Shown here in pieces: positions 8,223 to 19,910 of a stretch of DNA of 20,661 bases. Position numbers and translations under genes: made by a program. Every line of letters starts with the position of its first letter. The first letter of the stretch is position 1. The DNA is from a virus. Where the stretch lies: IMG/VR virus record IMGVR_UViG_3300027708_000341, positions 1 through 20,661 of that record, one strand, 5' to 3'. Below the pieces are notes generated by a model. It was not told where the DNA came from. It did not search any database and saw nothing but the letters and a program-made list of their open reading frames with translations.

Positions 8223-9158
8223 ATGCCTAAAATTTCTTTAAATTTACGTAAAGAACCAACAGATGTGGCACCCACATCGAATACCACATTTAATGCTCCG
8301 GGTAATTATTTACCTAGATACGGAAAAACTGACATCCTAGTTGGAGGTAGAGGTGCTCCAGGTAATGCAACAACGGGTGGTAACTATGCCACTACAAATC
8401 CGACAACAGGCGGTAACTACGCTGGTACAAATGCAACAACAGGCGGCAACTATGCTGGTACAAATCCGACAGAACCGGGTAACTATCTAGGATCTAATCC
8501 AACCGGTTATATCTATATGCGTAACATCTTACAAAATATTGATCCAGGTTCCGGAACAGGATTTGGTTATGATGATGACCCGGCAAGTGGGTATTATACT
8601 GAACAAGATAATCTCGGGAGCTTCTATAATGTAAAACCGGAACCTTATTCCTATTGGGGATTTTTTAATGAAAACCGGCCACTTGGAGCCGTTTACAATA
8701 TTTTTTCAGGACAGACATTATACAGTCAATTCCTAGGATTAACTTACACAAATGGTGTACCCACAAGTTATTCGAGAAATTATCTACAACAAAATGGATC
8801 ACCACCAACTTATGTGTATGCAGTAATAACTTATAATACAATGGCAATCCAACCTGGTGGTGCAACTTATAATCCACCAACACCAGGAAATGCATATTAT
8901 AATCCAATATATCCTGGTTATCCATATTATAATCCAACAATACCTGGAAATGCAAATTATAATCCAGTAGTACCGGGAACTGCTAGTGGATCTTATACAT
9001 TAGGTGGAGTAACATTAAGTGGTGCTCCAGCCGACACCAATGCCACAGAGGTCTTGCCAACACCATCATCATTAAAGTATAATGGACAATCTGGTATAAC
9101 TGTAACCGTACCAACAGGTGGATATGTTGTGATAACAAGTAAGGCAACAAACACTTAA
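8223..9158 (+). CDS. Repeat-rich Gly/Pro/Asn/Tyr fibre or adhesin-like protein
   Basis: A 311-residue low-complexity protein with two repeat arrays. Residues 52-95 hold four 11-residue units of the form GGNYAGTNxTT, the last with PG in place of GG. Residues 211-252 hold four 10-residue units of the form PGxAxYNPxx. Between them is a Tyr/Asn/Gly-rich region, and the C-terminus (SGITVTVPTGGYVVITSKATNT) looks like a beta-rich cap. Such sequences fit an extended virion fibre or receptor-binding tip; this is inferred from composition and from the preceding virion-type gene. No ribosome binding site is strong, and coupling to the preceding gene is likely. The next gene is a prolyl-hydroxylase-like oxygenase. 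Confidence 0.65.
   Translation: MPKISLNLRKEPTDVAPTSNTTFNAPGNYLPRYGKTDILVGGRGAPGNATTGGNYATTNPTTGGNYAGTNATTGGNYAGTNPTEPGNYLGSNPTGYIYMRNILQNIDPGSGTGFGYDDDPASGYYTEQDNLGSFYNVKPEPYSYWGFFNENRPLGAVYNIFSGQTLYSQFLGLTYTNGVPTSYSRNYLQQNGSPPTYVYAVITYNTMAIQPGGATYNPPTPGNAYYNPIYPGYPYYNPTIPGNANYNPVVPGTASGSYTLGGVTLSGAPADTNATEVLPTPSSLKYNGQSGITVTVPTGGYVVITSKATNT
8376..8507 (+). repeat. Four 33-base coding repeats
   Basis: Four in-frame 33-base units encode 11-residue copies of GGNYAGTNxTT in the fibre-like protein. The two middle copies are nearly identical at DNA level (GGCGGTAACTACGCTGGTAC against GGCGGCAACTATGCTGGTAC), differing mainly at third positions. The array can change length by slippage or recombination. 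Confidence 0.8.
8853..8978 (+). repeat. Four 30-base coding repeats (PGxAxYNPxx)
   Basis: Four in-frame 30-base units encode PGGATYNPPT, PGNAYYNPIY, PGYPYYNPTI and PGNANYNPVV, then a final PG. The Pro-Gly at a fixed 10-residue spacing gives a turn-rich, collagen-like appearance, although the period is not the collagen triplet. Confidence 0.8.
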
Positions 9159-9193: not shown

Positions 9194-9793
9194 ATGAGTA
9201 GAAGAATTGATTTGTATGTTCCACCAATGGAACCATGTGTTATTTGGAGTGGTGGATTTACAGATGAGGAATGTGATTCAATTAAAGATACAGGTGAGTT
9301 GTGTGAATTTTTGGACGCTAAGGTTGGATCTTCTGGAGAAGATGGAACATTAGACGAAACTGCCAGAAAAACAAAAATAGTATGGATTCAACCCAAAGAA
9401 GAAACTGCATGGATTTTTGAGCGAATGAATGAAATCGTTGCAAAAATGAATTTTGATAAGTTCCAAATGGATTTAACACAATTCGATGGATTCCAATATT
9501 CAAAGTACGAAGTTGGTGACCATTATGATTGGCATAATGATACAGTATTGAGTCCACGAAGTGGTTTATTTCGAAAATTATCATTTAGTTTAATGTTGTC
9601 TGATGTTGATGATTATGAGGGTGGAGAATTTTTACTTTCAATATCGGGTTCGGAAACCAAAACAGAACCTATGAAGGTGAAAAAAGGTGACTTGGTTGCT
9701 TTCTATTCACACATTCCACATAAAGTTTCACCGGTGACTTCAGGTCAACGACTTACATTGGTGACTTGGGCATTAGGAAGTAAATTTAAATGA
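9194..9793 (+). CDS. 2OG-Fe(II) oxygenase, prolyl-4-hydroxylase type
   Basis: A 199-residue dioxygenase using Fe(II), O2 and 2-oxoglutarate. The iron-binding HxD is in YDWHND (His114, Asp116). The distal His176 and the 2-oxoglutarate-binding Arg186 are in PHKVSPVTSGQRLTLVTW, the classic P4H-type C-terminal block. The core FQYSKYEVGDHYDWH, then KLSFSLMLSD, then GGEFLL, is complete, so the enzyme should be active. Relatives are frequent in marine T4-like phages; substrates are mostly unknown. AAAGG lies about 10 bases before the ATG. Its place directly after a Pro/Gly-repeat virion-type protein suggests that protein as a possible substrate. It is coupled to the next gene by ATGA. Confidence 0.88.
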   Translation: MSRRIDLYVPPMEPCVIWSGGFTDEECDSIKDTGELCEFLDAKVGSSGEDGTLDETARKTKIVWIQPKEETAWIFERMNEIVAKMNFDKFQMDLTQFDGFQYSKYEVGDHYDWHNDTVLSPRSGLFRKLSFSLMLSDVDDYEGGEFLLSISGSETKTEPMKVKKGDLVAFYSHIPHKVSPVTSGQRLTLVTWALGSKFK

Positions 9794-10530
9794 ATCTTAT
9801 ACGACTTTTCAAATCTGATATTATTGAATTTTATTGTGAAGTTGGTGATTTTGGTATTATTCCGGAACCTTATCCAGCATTTAAAAATATACCAGAGTGG
9901 TTTAAAAAAATACCCAATGTAGTTCCTTCAAAAGATAGAACAAAAGATAGAGATCAATTTGGTGCTAAAGCTCACACGGCCAAAAAATGTATGCCGTTAG
10001 TTGATGCCATGTCTGTTGGTTTTATTATTCCTTTGTTTGGTGATGTTAATATTAGGACTAATAAAGAAGGTTCGTTAATTGAAGCCACAAATGGTCCATA
10101 TCATCCAGTAGTTAGTTTTCACAGTAAAGAACAATTGGGTGGTAAAACATCACCTAGTTATCCAGCTGACGCCATTAAGTTTATCAATAAATGGTATGTT
10201 AAAACTGCTCCTGGTTATTCAACACTTTTTATTCCACCAATTAATTGTTTTGATCCACGATTCACTTGCCTTGGTGGGTTGGTTGATACAGATAGTTATC
10301 CTAGGATTATTAATTTTCCAGCAATTTGGCACTTAAAAGATTATGATGATGTGGTTTCTGCCGGAACACCTTTGGTTACTTGTATACCAATTAAAAGAAG
10401 CGATATGGTAAGGCAAGCTCCAGTTAGAGTGCAAACTGAAAAAGAAAAAATGAATGAAGAGAAAGTAAAGCGTCAACAAGATTCAAGAAGAAGTGTTTAT
10501 ACTAATGAAATAAGAGTGAATAAAAAATGA
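9790..10530 (+). CDS. Conserved phage protein (DUF6065-like family)
   Basis: A 246-residue soluble protein with conserved blocks PEPYPAFKNIPEWFKKIP, KKCMPLVDAMSVGFIIPL, WYVKTAPGYSTLFIPPIN, FTCLGGLVDTDSYP and SAGTPLVTCIPIKR. I recognise these from a family of unknown function in phages and some bacteria; I believe it is the one called DUF6065. The name should be confirmed. No catalytic motif is established. The C-terminal ~45 residues are highly charged and look like a coiled coil. It is coupled to the oxygenase upstream and to a diverged paralogue downstream, both by ATGA. Confidence 0.65.
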   Translation: MNLIRLFKSDIIEFYCEVGDFGIIPEPYPAFKNIPEWFKKIPNVVPSKDRTKDRDQFGAKAHTAKKCMPLVDAMSVGFIIPLFGDVNIRTNKEGSLIEATNGPYHPVVSFHSKEQLGGKTSPSYPADAIKFINKWYVKTAPGYSTLFIPPINCFDPRFTCLGGLVDTDSYPRIINFPAIWHLKDYDDVVSAGTPLVTCIPIKRSDMVRQAPVRVQTEKEKMNEEKVKRQQDSRRSVYTNEIRVNKK

Positions 10531-11288
10531 AATTATTTGATAAATTCTTTAAAAAAGAACCCACAATCAAATTTAAGAGCCATATAGGAGACTTTTCAAT
10601 ATGTTCTCCCGTTGTCGAATCTTGGAAGATAAAATCCGAATGGATGAAAAATCAAAAACCAGAAAATAAATTTACAATCTGTCCTGGTATGTTGGACTAT
10701 CATATGACAGGATATATTATTTGTGCTCATACCGATATAGCAATTAAAGCAAATAAATCCGGAGTTGTTATTATACCACGACATTCAGTAGGATTGACTC
10801 AATTTGAAAAATCTCTAACCAAACCATCACCATTCCAATATAAATTGGTTGAAGGTATGGTACCAATCAACGATAATGTAGCAAAAAATGTTTATAAAAT
10901 ACCTTTGCCTTGGTCTATTTTTACCAAACCAGGTTATTCCGCATATGTTTTACCTCCGTTAATGCACTCTCAATTATCGGATAAAATTTTTGTTTATCCT
11001 GGTGTGGTTGACTATGACCAATTTCATGACGTATCATTTGTTTTTTCAGCAATTAAAGAGTGTGAAATTATAATACCAACCGGCACTCCTTTATTGCAAG
11101 TCATTCCATTTAAACGTGAAAAGATCACAGCAGAATGTGGAAAATCTACAGAATCCGAAAGAGATAAACATTACTTCTCTTTAGCCTCCCGAGAAATTAA
11201 AAATTATTATAGAAAATTCCTTAGTGAAAGAAAGTCATTTAAAATGAAATGTCCGTATGAGCATCCACAATATAAAGATAAAAAATAA
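10527..11288 (+). CDS. Diverged paralogue of the preceding DUF6065-like protein
   Basis: A 253-residue protein with the same block order as its upstream neighbour: an N-terminal I-x-F-x-S-H-I-G-D-F strand, then WSIFTKPGYSAYVLPPLM (compare WYVKTAPGYSTLFIPPIN), then VYPGVVDYDQFHDVSFVFSA, then IPTGTPLLQVIPFKRE (compare SAGTPLVTCIPIKR). The KKCMPLVDAMSVGF block is replaced by FTICPGMLDYHMTGYII. This points to tandem duplication followed by divergence. The C-terminus is Lys-rich. Function is unknown. Its ATG overlaps the previous stop, and its own stop overlaps the next start (TAATG). Confidence 0.6.
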   Translation: MKLFDKFFKKEPTIKFKSHIGDFSICSPVVESWKIKSEWMKNQKPENKFTICPGMLDYHMTGYIICAHTDIAIKANKSGVVIIPRHSVGLTQFEKSLTKPSPFQYKLVEGMVPINDNVAKNVYKIPLPWSIFTKPGYSAYVLPPLMHSQLSDKIFVYPGVVDYDQFHDVSFVFSAIKECEIIIPTGTPLLQVIPFKREKITAECGKSTESERDKHYFSLASREIKNYYRKFLSERKSFKMKCPYEHPQYKDKK

Positions 11289-15688: not shown

Positions 15689-17302
15689 TACTGTCACTTG
15701 AATAAAATAATTCTGTGGAAGGTCATCTCTCACTTTGGTTGAACCTCCATACTGTAGTTTAGATTCTCTACCACCAAAGTTATTTGTTTTATTCATTGAA
15801 ATAACCTGTTCACCAGGACTTAAAGATTTATTAATTAAGTTTTCATCTTGTAATTGTGGAATTGTTTTTGTGGGAATTGGTTCTTGTTGTTTAGATTCTG
15901 ATTCATTATCATATTTTTTATAAGCAGACGTTACAGGTGATAAAGCATCAGAAAATTCTGATTCATTATCATATTTTTTATAAGCAGACGTTACAGGTGA
16001 TAAAGCATCAGAAATTTTATTTTCCATTTCTTTTGTATATTTACCAGCAACACCTTTAATACTTTCTTCTAAAAGTTTTTTAGTTTTTGGAACTTCTATA
16101 GCTTGAATTACGTCAGTTAGTGTAGCTTCTTTTCCATCTTTTTTAAATTTTAATGTACTTAATGTTCCACCTTTTTCTGGAGGAATTTCTTCTTTTTCCC
16201 ATCCATCATCAATCATTGCAGGAATTAAAACTTCTTGACGATATTTTTGTACAAGTAGTGTGCGTTTTTTCTTTAATTCTTCAATTTCTTTATTGGTTTC
16301 ATTTATTGAATTTATGTCCATTGTTCCGGATGCAGCATCACTTAAAGATTGTTCTTTTTCCAAAATTTTATCATCAATTTCTTTAGCTTCAGGTCCTTCT
16401 TTTAATGTTTTTTCATAATCTTTATAATTTGAATAAGCTGCAACTCCACCAACAGCAGCTAGTCCACCCAATAATATTAATGACATTGGTCCACCAATAA
16501 CAGCAGCCACGCCGGCACGAGCAATACTTTCTAATCCACCTACAACAAACTTCTTAAAAAAGGTTTCTATCAATGATGTGATTGGAGTTATTAATAAAGA
16601 CATTATTGTAGATGCAATTGATGAAGCAAAAGATACAAAAGAAGATGCTAGTGTGGTCAAAATTGGAATTATTGCAGACATCAAAGTGCCTAATAATTTT
16701 TTTATATTTTCTACCAATTTTTTAATAAAAGATTTTACACCAGTATCTTCTGGTTTTGCTTTATCTTTTTTACCTAAGATTGCATCGATAACTTTTTTGT
16801 GTCTACGTTTATCTTCAACTAATTGTTCTTGACGAAAGGCTTTTTCAATCTCATTGCTTAGTTTACTTCTTTCATGTGTTTTTTGCATGAAGTTATACAT
16901 TTTACCAAGAATATTGGCAATTGAATCACCAGATTTTAAAGCTGCAATAGGTCCACCACTCATTGTAGTAAACTGAGGATCTTTTTTTTCTTTTAATTTC
17001 TTTCTGCCTGGTTTTCCACTACGTCTATAACCACCAAAATATTCAATGTCACTATCACTTCTTCCCATTGCACGACCACCAATTGTGCGAATAGACCTAC
17101 CGATCACACCTTCACCGGTAATGGCTTTGAGCATATTCAACGGATCAAACTTTTCCTTAATGCCTAATGCTCTAGCTTTAAGTTTTTCTGATATGGCAGA
17201 TCCAATTGATGAACCTAGTCCTTCACCTTCTTTAAATTTCTTTTCAGCAATTAAAGATAAGAGACCTTTCTTTCTTACTTGCGAAGCCTTTTTATAGTCC
17301 AT
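15686..17302 (-). CDS. Large tail structural protein with hydrophobic core
   Basis: A 538-residue protein. In order: a basic N-terminus, a domain shared with its neighbour (residues about 104-139, with KSGDSIANILGKMYNFM), then a charged helix (140-185). Two long hydrophobic stretches follow (about 205-250 and 253-292, the latter Gly/Ala-rich). Next are a coiled coil (about 300-360), a perfect 20-residue tandem repeat (about 431-469) and a polar C-terminus with ISMNKTNNFGG. Hydrophobic helices in a tail gene suggest a tape-measure or injection role in the host membrane; this is inference. AGG lies before the ATG, and only 6 bases separate it from the upstream gene. Confidence 0.6.
   Translation of the reverse strand: MDYKKASQVRKKGLLSLIAEKKFKEGEGLGSSIGSAISEKLKARALGIKEKFDPLNMLKAITGEGVIGRSIRTIGGRAMGRSDSDIEYFGGYRRSGKPGRKKLKEKKDPQFTTMSGGPIAALKSGDSIANILGKMYNFMQKTHERSKLSNEIEKAFRQEQLVEDKRRHKKVIDAILGKKDKAKPEDTGVKSFIKKLVENIKKLLGTLMSAIIPILTTLASSFVSFASSIASTIMSLLITPITSLIETFFKKFVVGGLESIARAGVAAVIGGPMSLILLGGLAAVGGVAAYSNYKDYEKTLKEGPEAKEIDDKILEKEQSLSDAASGTMDINSINETNKEIEELKKKRTLLVQKYRQEVLIPAMIDDGWEKEEIPPEKGGTLSTLKFKKDGKEATLTDVIQAIEVPKTKKLLEESIKGVAGKYTKEMENKISDALSPVTSAYKKYDNESEFSDALSPVTSAYKKYDNESESKQQEPIPTKTIPQLQDENLINKSLSPGEQVISMNKTNNFGGRESKLQYGGSTKVRDDLPQNYFIQVTV
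15895..16014 (-). repeat. Perfect 60-base tandem duplication in coding sequence
   Basis: Two adjacent 60-base copies (15895-15954 and 15955-16014) are identical base for base. They encode two copies of SDALSPVTSAYKKYDNESE plus a joining residue, in frame. Absence of silent changes indicates a very recent duplication, or an assembly artefact. Confidence 0.9.
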
Positions 17303-17308
17303 TTTTTA

Positions 17309-18988
17309 TTACCTGTAAATAGGAAATTGTTTGGCCAAGATATCAGGCCAAAGGTTTTCATTGCCAGTTGATATCAACATGTTAGTATCACCAGAATAAT
17401 TGTTATTTGTTTGATTTAAAAATACTGATGCTTGTTGTGCAGTACTAAAAGATTTCTTAATTTTATTTGTTTCATTAAATTTACTGTCAGCTGCAGCAAT
17501 TGGAGATTCTGGAGTTTGTAGTGATGCAGTTGTGACAGGACTTATAGCCATAAAGGTACTTGGATCTACCTTTACACCTTTTTGCAAAACTTCATAGTGT
17601 AAATGTGGTCCTGTAGAACGACCAGTAGAACCTACTTCACCAATTTTTTGTCCTTTAGATACAGTATCACCTGCTCCTACATTAGTTTTTGATAGGTGAG
17701 CATATCGTGTCTTTAAGTTATTCCCGTGGTCAACTTCAATAAAGTTTCCATAACCTCCGGACTCGTTACCAATTCTAGTAACTACACCTTGTCCTGTAGA
17801 CACTACTGCATCACCTTGAGCACCTTTGATATCTATTCCACGATGGTCATGGTCACCACGATGCTCACCAAATTTACCAGATATTTTATTAGGTTGAATT
17901 GGTTGGCCAGATAAAGACCTCTCTATATTAGGAATATTTTGAACTCTTTTTTGTGCTTGTTCATCAGCATTTGCTGGTCGTTCAAACTTTTTTGTAAATT
18001 CTGTAGTTGCTTCTTCTGAAGATTTGAATTGTTTACTGGTATAATCTCTACCTTCTTTTTCTTTTAGTGCAAAGTCTATTTGACCTTTCCAATCTTTTTG
18101 CCAATCGGGACCAACTTCTTTTTTCATGGATTCAAATCGTTCATTGCGGTGTTGAAATAATCCACCAGAAGTACCATTATCACCTATTGCCCCAGGTTTG
18201 AAACTGGATTCTGCCTGTATGTTTGCTACCATACCCACAGCATGTTCATGTGACAAACCTTTTTCTTTGGTCAAGTAATCATAGATATCTTTTGCTTTAG
18301 TTTCATTTAATGTTCCTGCTGTTCCACTATCACCACCTTTAACAAAATCCGGCAACAAACTTTTCCAATCAACATTTGCTAATGCTTTCTCAGCTAAAAA
18401 GAATGTGCCAATGGCACCTGCACCCATGATACCAATCTTTGCTAATTTACCAAAATTAGTAGACTTACCACTTCTTTTACCAGCTGGTGCTTTTTTACCT
18501 GTTAACGCCATGACCAATTCATCCGTGAATCGATCTTTTTGGTCCATTAATTGTTTTCTATATTTCTCATCTGCCTTGTTTTGTTTCTTCTCAAGTAGAT
18601 AATTTCGCACCATAAAATTATACATTTTACCAAGAATATCCGCTTCAGAATCACCAGACTTCAGAGATTTGATTGGTCCATCACCTATCGTAGAAAAGTT
18701 TGGATCTTTGTCTTTGATTGTTTGTTTATACTCAGTCGTTTCTGGTTCGGAAGATGGTGTTGTAGTTTTTCTTGAAGGATTTGATTTAAAAAAACGAGAT
18801 AGTACAGGAGAGGCCATCATGTCTTTGATACCTTCAGTATTCATAATCCTATTGGATTTTTCCGATAAATTATTATTTTCAGCTTCTTTTTGGCCACCAG
18901 TTTTACCATTAGCTCCCATATTATATTGATAATCGGAAGATAAATTGGATGGAGTTAACCATTCATTTTGTTTAAAAAAGGAAGCCAT
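17309..18988 (-). CDS. Baseplate hub protein with tail lysozyme and M23 peptidase domains
   Basis: A 559-residue virion-associated murein hydrolase. In order: a polar N-terminus; a domain shared with the downstream protein (about 92-127, with KSGDSEADILGKMYNFM); a hydrophobic helix (about 183-200); a phage tail lysozyme domain (about 232-355, with the likely catalytic Glu260 in NIQAESSF and GGLFQHR). An M23 lysostaphin-type peptidase domain follows (about 370-478). Its zinc ligands are His382 and Asp386 in DHRGIDI and His464 in PHLHYE, with His431 in YAHL. The C-terminus has VFLNQTNNNYSG. It probably sits at the tail tip and cuts glycan and peptide bonds at DNA entry, the counterpart of T4 gp5. 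The start follows the preceding stop by 5 bases. Confidence 0.82.
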   Translation of the reverse strand: MASFFKQNEWLTPSNLSSDYQYNMGANGKTGGQKEAENNNLSEKSNRIMNTEGIKDMMASPVLSRFFKSNPSRKTTTPSSEPETTEYKQTIKDKDPNFSTIGDGPIKSLKSGDSEADILGKMYNFMVRNYLLEKKQNKADEKYRKQLMDQKDRFTDELVMALTGKKAPAGKRSGKSTNFGKLAKIGIMGAGAIGTFFLAEKALANVDWKSLLPDFVKGGDSGTAGTLNETKAKDIYDYLTKEKGLSHEHAVGMVANIQAESSFKPGAIGDNGTSGGLFQHRNERFESMKKEVGPDWQKDWKGQIDFALKEKEGRDYTSKQFKSSEEATTEFTKKFERPANADEQAQKRVQNIPNIERSLSGQPIQPNKISGKFGEHRGDHDHRGIDIKGAQGDAVVSTGQGVVTRIGNESGGYGNFIEVDHGNNLKTRYAHLSKTNVGAGDTVSKGQKIGEVGSTGRSTGPHLHYEVLQKGVKVDPSTFMAISPVTTASLQTPESPIAAADSKFNETNKIKKSFSTAQQASVFLNQTNNNYSGDTNMLISTGNENLWPDILAKQFPIYR

Positions 18989-18993
18989 TTAAT

Positions 18994-19191
18994 TTATCGT
19001 TTCATTGATGATTGTTGTTGTTTTATTTTTTCGTTTTCTTCTTCAATATACTGAACCAACATAGCAACGTAGATGTCACGTTCCCACGGCAACATATTTT
19101 CAAGTTCCGTAAGACTATATTTGTGGTGTTGCATCAAAGAGAAATTAGTTCTATAATAATTTCTCAGGTTGTCATAACAAAATATTACCCG
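18994..19191 (-). CDS. C-terminal extension of the gp26-type protein, read by -1 frameshift
   Basis: A -1 shift at the T_TTT_TTC site gives 65 extra codons starting CGG GTA ATA and ending in TAA at 18994-18996; the fusion would be about 305 residues. Within it, ATG 19134 could start a 46-residue protein, but the bases before it (AATTTCTCTTTG) contain no ribosome binding site. The frame contains NYYRTNFSLMQHHKYSLTEL, then MLPWERDIYVAMLVQYIEEE. The WERD-x-Y motif with an acidic, Lys/Gln-rich helix after it is what I expect from tail-assembly-chaperone extensions and short gp51-type proteins. Codons are clean and there are no stops. It lies between the gp26-type gene and the large hydrolase gene, where T4 has gene 51. 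Confidence 0.65.
   Translation of the reverse strand, partial: RVIFCYDNLRNYYRTNFSLMQHHKYSLTELENMLPWERDIYVAMLVQYIEEENEKIKQQQSSMKR
19139..19165 (-). other. Perfect 9-bp hairpin after the slippery site
   Basis: In the mRNA, GAGAAATTA (19165-19157) pairs fully with TAATTTCTC (19147-19139) around a 9-base loop. It begins 25 bases after the slippery heptamer and ends 4 bases before ATG 19134. It could stimulate frameshifting, though the spacing is longer than usual, or block free initiation at that ATG. Confidence 0.45.
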
Positions 19192-19910
19192 AAAAAACTT
19201 TCGAGACCTTCCATACTAATCGTATGGTCAAAACCGCATTTAGAACACTTCATCTCAACTTTCTTATTCAACTTTGGAAGGTCATTAAAAAACTCTTCCA
19301 ATTTAGAAAATTGTTCCTGACTTAAAGATTCAATAAACTGCATTAATTCTGTTCTTGGTGTTTCTTTTGCGTAGTAGTATTGTTCACCATCAAAGATATA
19401 TTCAATACTATCAATTACTACTTCAAATGCAATATCAACAGCCGAATCTTTTTTACTTAACTTATCAACCAAAGAAAATTCTGGATATTTCATTTTCAAA
19501 CTAATCTTATCGTTAATTTGAATAATATCTTTTCTATTTGGATCAATATCAACACTAATGTCTAATAGGTTGAATGTTGCTTCCATTTTGTTCTTACATT
19601 CAACATCATTAACCACATTGGTGCAAACATATTTGTTGGACACAACTTCACCAACAGACCTTGCACGAAGGTTAATAAAGTAAAACTCAACATCAATAAC
19701 GGGTAAGGCATCAACGTTGACACCTTCTGTTATTGTACAGTTGGTTAATACTTGTCTGATGTTTCTTTCAATGGTTTCTTTATCATCCGATTCCATTGCC
19801 ATCATTAAATTCTTTTGTTCTTTAACTAAGAAAGGCCTAAAACGAATTTGTTTCTTAGAAAGTGGTAATTCCAGTTCATAGACCGGGGTATCAATTTTTG
19901 GTAATGCCAT
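19185..19910 (-). CDS. gp26: gp26-type baseplate hub / tail-assembly protein
   Basis: A 241-residue protein of the T4 baseplate family that includes gp26. The N-terminus LPKIDTPVYELELPLSKKQI and FRPFLVKEQKNLMMA is typical. So is the C-terminus, MKCSKCGFDHTISMEGLESF followed by FG. Cys96 (YVCTN), Cys105 (VECKN), Cys222 and Cys225 could form a zinc ribbon. The family helps to assemble the hub around the tape measure. AAAGGAG lies before the ATG. The last codons are AGT TTT TTC GGG TAA, which contain a phased slippery heptamer leading into an open -1 frame; the protein thus probably has a short and a frameshifted long form. Confidence 0.78.
   Translation of the reverse strand: MALPKIDTPVYELELPLSKKQIRFRPFLVKEQKNLMMAMESDDKETIERNIRQVLTNCTITEGVNVDALPVIDVEFYFINLRARSVGEVVSNKYVCTNVVNDVECKNKMEATFNLLDISVDIDPNRKDIIQINDKISLKMKYPEFSLVDKLSKKDSAVDIAFEVVIDSIEYIFDGEQYYYAKETPRTELMQFIESLSQEQFSKLEEFFNDLPKLNKKVEMKCSKCGFDHTISMEGLESFFG
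19191..19197 (-). other. Slippery heptamer T_TTT_TTC for -1 frameshifting
   Basis: The codons AGT TTT TTC place the heptamer exactly in the X_XXY_YYZ phase, with both tRNAs able to re-pair after a -1 slip. It lies one sense codon (GGG) before the gp26-type stop. The shifted frame stays open for 65 codons. Confidence 0.65.

Follow-up and report, generated by a model that had tools for sequence, protein, structure and literature searches.

A probable −1 ribosomal frameshift linking gp26 and gp51 in an uncultured lineage of T4-like phages

A −1 ribosomal frameshift at the end of a gp26-type gene very probably yields both gp26 and a gp26-gp51 fusion in the virus record IMGVR_UViG_3300027708_000341, of which positions 1 to 20,661 were analysed (the window, 20,661 nucleotides in all). 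This is the only explanation that fits well with the comparative sequence data and the structural model. Most ribosomes would end at the 0-frame TAA and release a short chaperone of 241 residues (TAC-N). A minority would slip one base back on T_TTT_TTC, the tRNAs paired with TTT and TTC shifting onto TTT and TTT. Translation of a further 65 codons, now in the −1 frame, would give a gp26-gp51 fusion of about 304 residues (TAC-NC). Both forms, by analogy with lambda G/GT, would coat the tape-measure protein, recruit tail-tube subunits and be absent from the finished virion; we infer the chaperone role, as well as the occurrence and efficiency of shifting. The slippery site, its phase, its conservation, the coding constraint, the homology and the fold are directly supported, and the features concerned are listed in Table 1.

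Table 1. Features at the junction of the gp26-type gene and its −1-frame extension in the window
Feature	Position	Strand	Basis
gp26-type protein, 241 aa, predicted short tail assembly chaperone TAC-N	19185..19910	-	PF12322 T4_baseplate, phrog_150, fold
Slippery heptamer T_TTT_TTC	19191..19197	-	phase by direct reading and conservation
0-frame stop TAA, two codons past the heptamer	19185..19187	-	sequence
−1-frame extension, 65 codons, predicted gp51 / TAC-C domain	18994..19190	-	phrog_634, frame constraint, T4 gp51 alignment
GAAGG within Glu-Gly codons, weak SD-like match, upstream of the heptamer; counterpart of the GAGGG of other T4-like groups	19200..19212	-	
9-bp inverted repeat, probably not functional	19139..19165	-	23/43 relatives, fold z, alignment folding

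The 3' end of the gp26 gene reads GAA AGT TTT TTC GGG TAA on the minus strand, with the heptamer TTTTTTC in X_XXY_YYZ phase in the 0 frame, ahead of the 0-frame stop, which agrees with the slippery phase claimed by the first-pass annotation. Past TTT TTT, an open −1 frame of 65 codons begins with CGG, whose first base is the last of the heptamer (19191), and is closed by a stop at 18996-18994. There is no ATG in this frame before codon 20, and the sole early ATG, at 19134, has no Shine-Dalgarno (SD) sequence. These details had also been described, with all coordinates right. The gp26 protein matches PF12322 (E 1e-57; 195.8 bits against a curated cut-off of 24.5) and phrog_150 (1e-62), and the extension matches phrog_634 (1.1e-29) and the C-terminus of phrog_150. 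The comparison with T4 gp51 proposed at that stage aligns the extension with the C-terminus of gp51. The earlier gene order of tail tube, gp26-type gene and large tail proteins is borne out by domain and phrog matches: the tail tube gene (20564-19935; phrog_45, 1.6e-37) is followed by gp26, the extension and two large tail proteins, of which the first carries tail lysozyme and M23 domains while the second has weak tape-measure matches. The first of these, a 559-residue protein encoded directly after the extension (17309-18988, minus strand), combines phage tail lysozyme and M23 peptidase domains, both of which are cell-wall cutting.

Elsewhere in the window, the gene of a 538-residue tail protein contains a perfect 60-bp tandem duplication (15895-16014; two copies, 100% match), which is either a recent duplication or an assembly artefact. 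A 311-residue protein encoded at 8223-9158 on the plus strand has 33-base and 30-base tandem repeats with TGGNYAGTNP-like and YNPxxPGNAY-like units, and it has no Pfam match. Two adjacent plus-strand genes (9790-10530 and 10527-11288) resemble each other on visual inspection; the first has a DUF6065 match (1.2e-7). They adjoin a 2OG-Fe(II) oxygenase gene at 9194-9793 (PF13640, 3.9e-17), with which they possibly form a modification cassette.

Related loci were gathered as 80 close relatives, 80 broader relatives and 84 sequences from three further queries, plus isolate records. In total, 259 loci were tested and three were unusable, two running off the contig end and one (L065) having a broken gp26 frame. 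The non-redundant set comprised 116 sequences, including the window, and that of close relatives 43. T_TTT_TTN, in phase and joined to a homologous −1 extension, was found in all 256 usable loci, so the alignment across relatives suggested by the first-pass annotation bears out both elements. These loci include cyanophages, pelagiphages, methylophage Melnitz, Caulobacter phage Cr30, Sinorhizobium phage phiM19, Rhizobium phage P10VF, Pseudomonas phage pf16 and Vibrio phage ValKK3, and the 116 non-redundant sequences span many phage families. Aeromonas phage Ah1, Acidovorax phage ACP17 and Stenotrophomonas phage Ps15 likewise have the heptamer and the extension. In every one of the 116, the codon before the run ends in T (NNT) and the first Phe codon is TTT, for which the naive probabilities are 5e-23 (fixed third-base T) and 1e-16 (fixed TTT), values that are too small given shared ancestry. 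The six T are invariant, while the second Phe-position codon varies (TTC, TTT, TTA or TTG) and the residue before the run can be Ser, Asn, Asp or Ala. In 253 of 256 loci, the end of the heptamer lies 3 or 6 nt upstream of the end of the stop codon. On this sequence comparison, the joint arrangement of heptamer and −1 extension is far beyond chance. The window itself belongs to an uncultured lineage with 65-83% identity to 80 metagenome contigs and less than 40% to isolates, and the sample numbers of its metagenomic relatives suggest a freshwater origin.

The same conservation bears on the possibility that a missing or extra base in the record splits a single in-frame gene. Homopolymers are error-prone, the broken gp26 frame of L065 looks like such an error, and the run is one T shorter in Stenotrophomonas phage IME-SM1 (five) than in its relative Ps15 (six). 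Many independent assemblies and isolates nevertheless share this two-frame layout, 256 loci in all, which refutes sequencing or assembly error as the general cause and leaves it a negligible probability. Transcriptional slippage on the T run, in which mRNAs with an altered number of U would give the fusion by normal translation, could draw on the presence of the run in all loci and on its extension to T7 or T8 in some (Cr30, phiM19, Melnitz). Most loci, however, have only six T followed by C (A in 7 and G in 2 of the 116 non-redundant sequences), and a run of six T is short for slippage by RNA polymerase, yet preserves the ribosomal heptamer. Moreover, the SD-like and hairpin elements of other groups, described below, point to the ribosome, and slippage during transcription is thus highly improbable.

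Three isolate records depart from the common pattern. In IME-SM1 (locus L275, about position 2208) the gp26 frame continues beyond the point where it normally stops, and a different frame encodes the extension; since Ps15 (L280) has six T, the five T in the deposited sequence probably reflect a homopolymer sequencing error. Vibrio phage Kuja (L276, about 2080-2110; Ackermannviridae) has AAC CTT TTT CAA TAA, with a slippery C_CTT_TTT instead of the T run, and its −1 extension ends in a similar PW motif. Streptococcus phage vB_SagM-GXN1 (L279, about 2220-2300) encodes a gp26-type protein without a T_TTT_TT heptamer. Its likely C-terminal extension occupies the +1 (or −2) frame, which may point to recoding in another direction within this family.

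If ribosomes shift frame, translation should pass into the extension at the slip site. A separate small gp51 gene would instead be translated from a start codon of its own, or through termination-reinitiation close to the end of gp26, and no fusion would arise. In the window, 19 codons of the −1 frame lie between the heptamer and the first ATG. Across the 43 close relatives, the synonymous share of differences in these codons is 0.67 when they are read in the −1 frame, compared with about 0.20 for the other frames, and stop codons number 0 in the −1 frame against 126 and 128 in the other two. The codons before the ATG therefore evolve as coding sequence in the −1 frame only, judged from these substitutions. 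In addition, synonymous constraint in the window's lineage peaks from the NNT codon before the heptamer through −1 codon 6. Going upstream from the heptamer, a −1-frame stop is reached after no more than 19 codons, and a potential start codon of any kind occurs there in just 8 of the 256 loci.

Most records do annotate gp51 as its own coding sequence. Near the gp26 stop, codon 4 of the −1 frame is an ATG in 40 of the 116 non-redundant sequences, and some phages have TAATG or TGATG at the junction. In the window, by contrast, the first ATG comes only at codon 20 and lacks an SD sequence, and it reads ATA in 6 of the 43 close relatives. Ten of the 116 non-redundant sequences have their first −1 ATG within the conserved core, at codon 33 or 34. 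One of the records with its first ATG within the core, ACG-2014d, carries no gp51 annotation. A separate gene would also leave unexplained the constraint on the codons before the ATG and the fixed heptamer, and T4 has the fused form in one frame. An independently started gp51 is accordingly very unlikely, though less so than slippage of the polymerase.

A perfect 9-bp hairpin (GAGAAATTA/TAATTTCTC, minus strand) downstream of the heptamer, noted in the first-pass annotation, was considered as a stimulator of the predicted frameshift. The inverted repeat is present as described, but its standing as a functional element is not upheld: all nine pairs are kept in 23 of the 43 non-redundant close relatives, its fold z is −0.47, and RNAalifold detected no conserved RNA structure in the alignment of those 43 sequences. 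Because it is complete in so few relatives and begins 25 nt past the heptamer, which is too far downstream, the hairpin is probably not a stimulator and was rejected as a candidate. Other T4-like groups favour GAG in the Glu-Gly codons that precede the heptamer by about 9 nt, giving an SD-like GAGGG; GAG is used in 67 of 86 cases against 268 of 980 (27%) elsewhere (Fisher p 2e-20, which ignores phylogeny). No GAG enrichment was found in the window's group (p 0.29, again ignoring phylogeny). Fold z is below −2 in 40% of the 50-nt stretches past the heptamer in those other groups, compared with 7% in a control region, and in S-PM2, for example, a long stem with perfect pairing begins about 10 nt past the heptamer; the mean downstream fold z in the window's lineage is −0.23. 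An SD-like element and a downstream hairpin thus appear to be features of other T4-like groups, clear versions of which seem to be lacking in the window's lineage, and the efficiency of frameshifting there may consequently be low. It is conceivable, as a tentative suggestion, that this lineage slips on an almost bare T_TTT_TTC after losing the upstream GAGGG and the downstream hairpin, so that within one gene family stimulation would have changed or moved to an unknown signal, for example the synonymously constrained −1 codons 2-6. This comparison of stimulators across lineages may be new relative to the literature.

The assignment of gp26 to the tail assembly chaperones is consistent with an AlphaFold model (pLDDT 88.7). 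In VIA-align, the top two matches of residues 1-88 are B. subtilis YqbN (3klu) at Z 7.3 and, at Z 7.2, the tail assembly chaperone of HK97 (2ob9), followed by a protein of a V. cholerae PICI-like element (5ir0, Z 5.7), the next unrelated row scoring 3.2. Foldseek of the same model against the PDB gave no significant match, and a profile search against PDB sequences gave no match. The N-terminal domain of gp26 is thus predicted to have the TAC-N fold, with support that is moderate but specific. Taken together, the comparative sequence and structural evidence strongly supports the earlier suggestion that gp26 and gp51 are a chaperone pair made by −1 frameshifting.

If so, the annotation of a very common gene pair is to be corrected. 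The "gp51, hub assembly catalyst" of most T4-like phages is probably the C-terminal part of a frameshifted chaperone and not a free short protein, and reading T4 gp26 and gp51 as short and long tail assembly chaperones is supported. In addition, the 116 non-redundant natural variants, with and without stimulators, provide a comparison set for −1 shifting at a polyT heptamer. Vladimirov, Gautam and Davidson reportedly found in 2022 that frameshifting is conserved in several T4-like groups and that T4's group uses two genes. The TAC-N and TAC-NC genes of that work we take to be gp26 and gp51, in line with the T4 comparison made here.

The first-pass annotation knew of no description for this group; two later papers, however, cite frameshifting in T4-like phages as already published. 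The PRFect paper (PMC10885494) cites Vladimirov, Gautam and Davidson (2022, Virology 566:9-15) for some T4-like phages having separate short and long TAC genes with no frameshifting, and polyT −1 frameshift signals in T4-like TAC-N genes are credited to that work in the paper on phage Adele (PMC12846349). As far as these citing passages go, the window is therefore a well-supported but ordinary further case, with the same kind of polyT −1 signal in its TAC-N gene, and it differs in coming from an uncultured lineage less than 40% identical to isolates. T4 gp51 is needed for assembly and absent from the final particle (PMC3004832). Sullivan et al. (2010) described cyanophage and vibriophage gp51 as short of about 200 N-terminal residues relative to T4 gp51, and frameshifting is unmentioned there (PMC3037559).

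Among known systems, lambda gpG/gpGT resembles what is predicted for the window in that a short product and a −1 frameshift fusion come from the region separating the tail tube and tape-measure genes (see also PMC10885494), and differs in its slippery sequence. The N-terminal 88 residues of gp26 superpose on HK97 2ob9 and YqbN 3klu at a sequence identity of 5-8%, whereas gp26 is about twice as long and has an extra domain outside the match. A further parallel is with the hub assembly chaperones of T4. Both gp26 (208 aa; PF12322 only) and gp51 (249 aa) carry PF12322, and in gp51 a single open frame holds this domain (3.9e-52) followed by the extension (phrog_634, 1.2e-23), the arrangement of the predicted fusion product. 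In contrast to the window, the two T4 genes lie on opposite strands without a slippery heptamer, which is destroyed in T4 gp26 since its Phe-Phe codons are TTC TTT. T4-type gp26 domains form one well-supported group and T4-type gp51 domains another in a tree that separates these two groups but does not order their split relative to the frameshifting lineages. Since the gp26 domain and the extension share a single frame in gp51, T4 appears to rely on two genes for the same pair of short and long products, and so to encode separately what its relatives would make from one gene by shifting.
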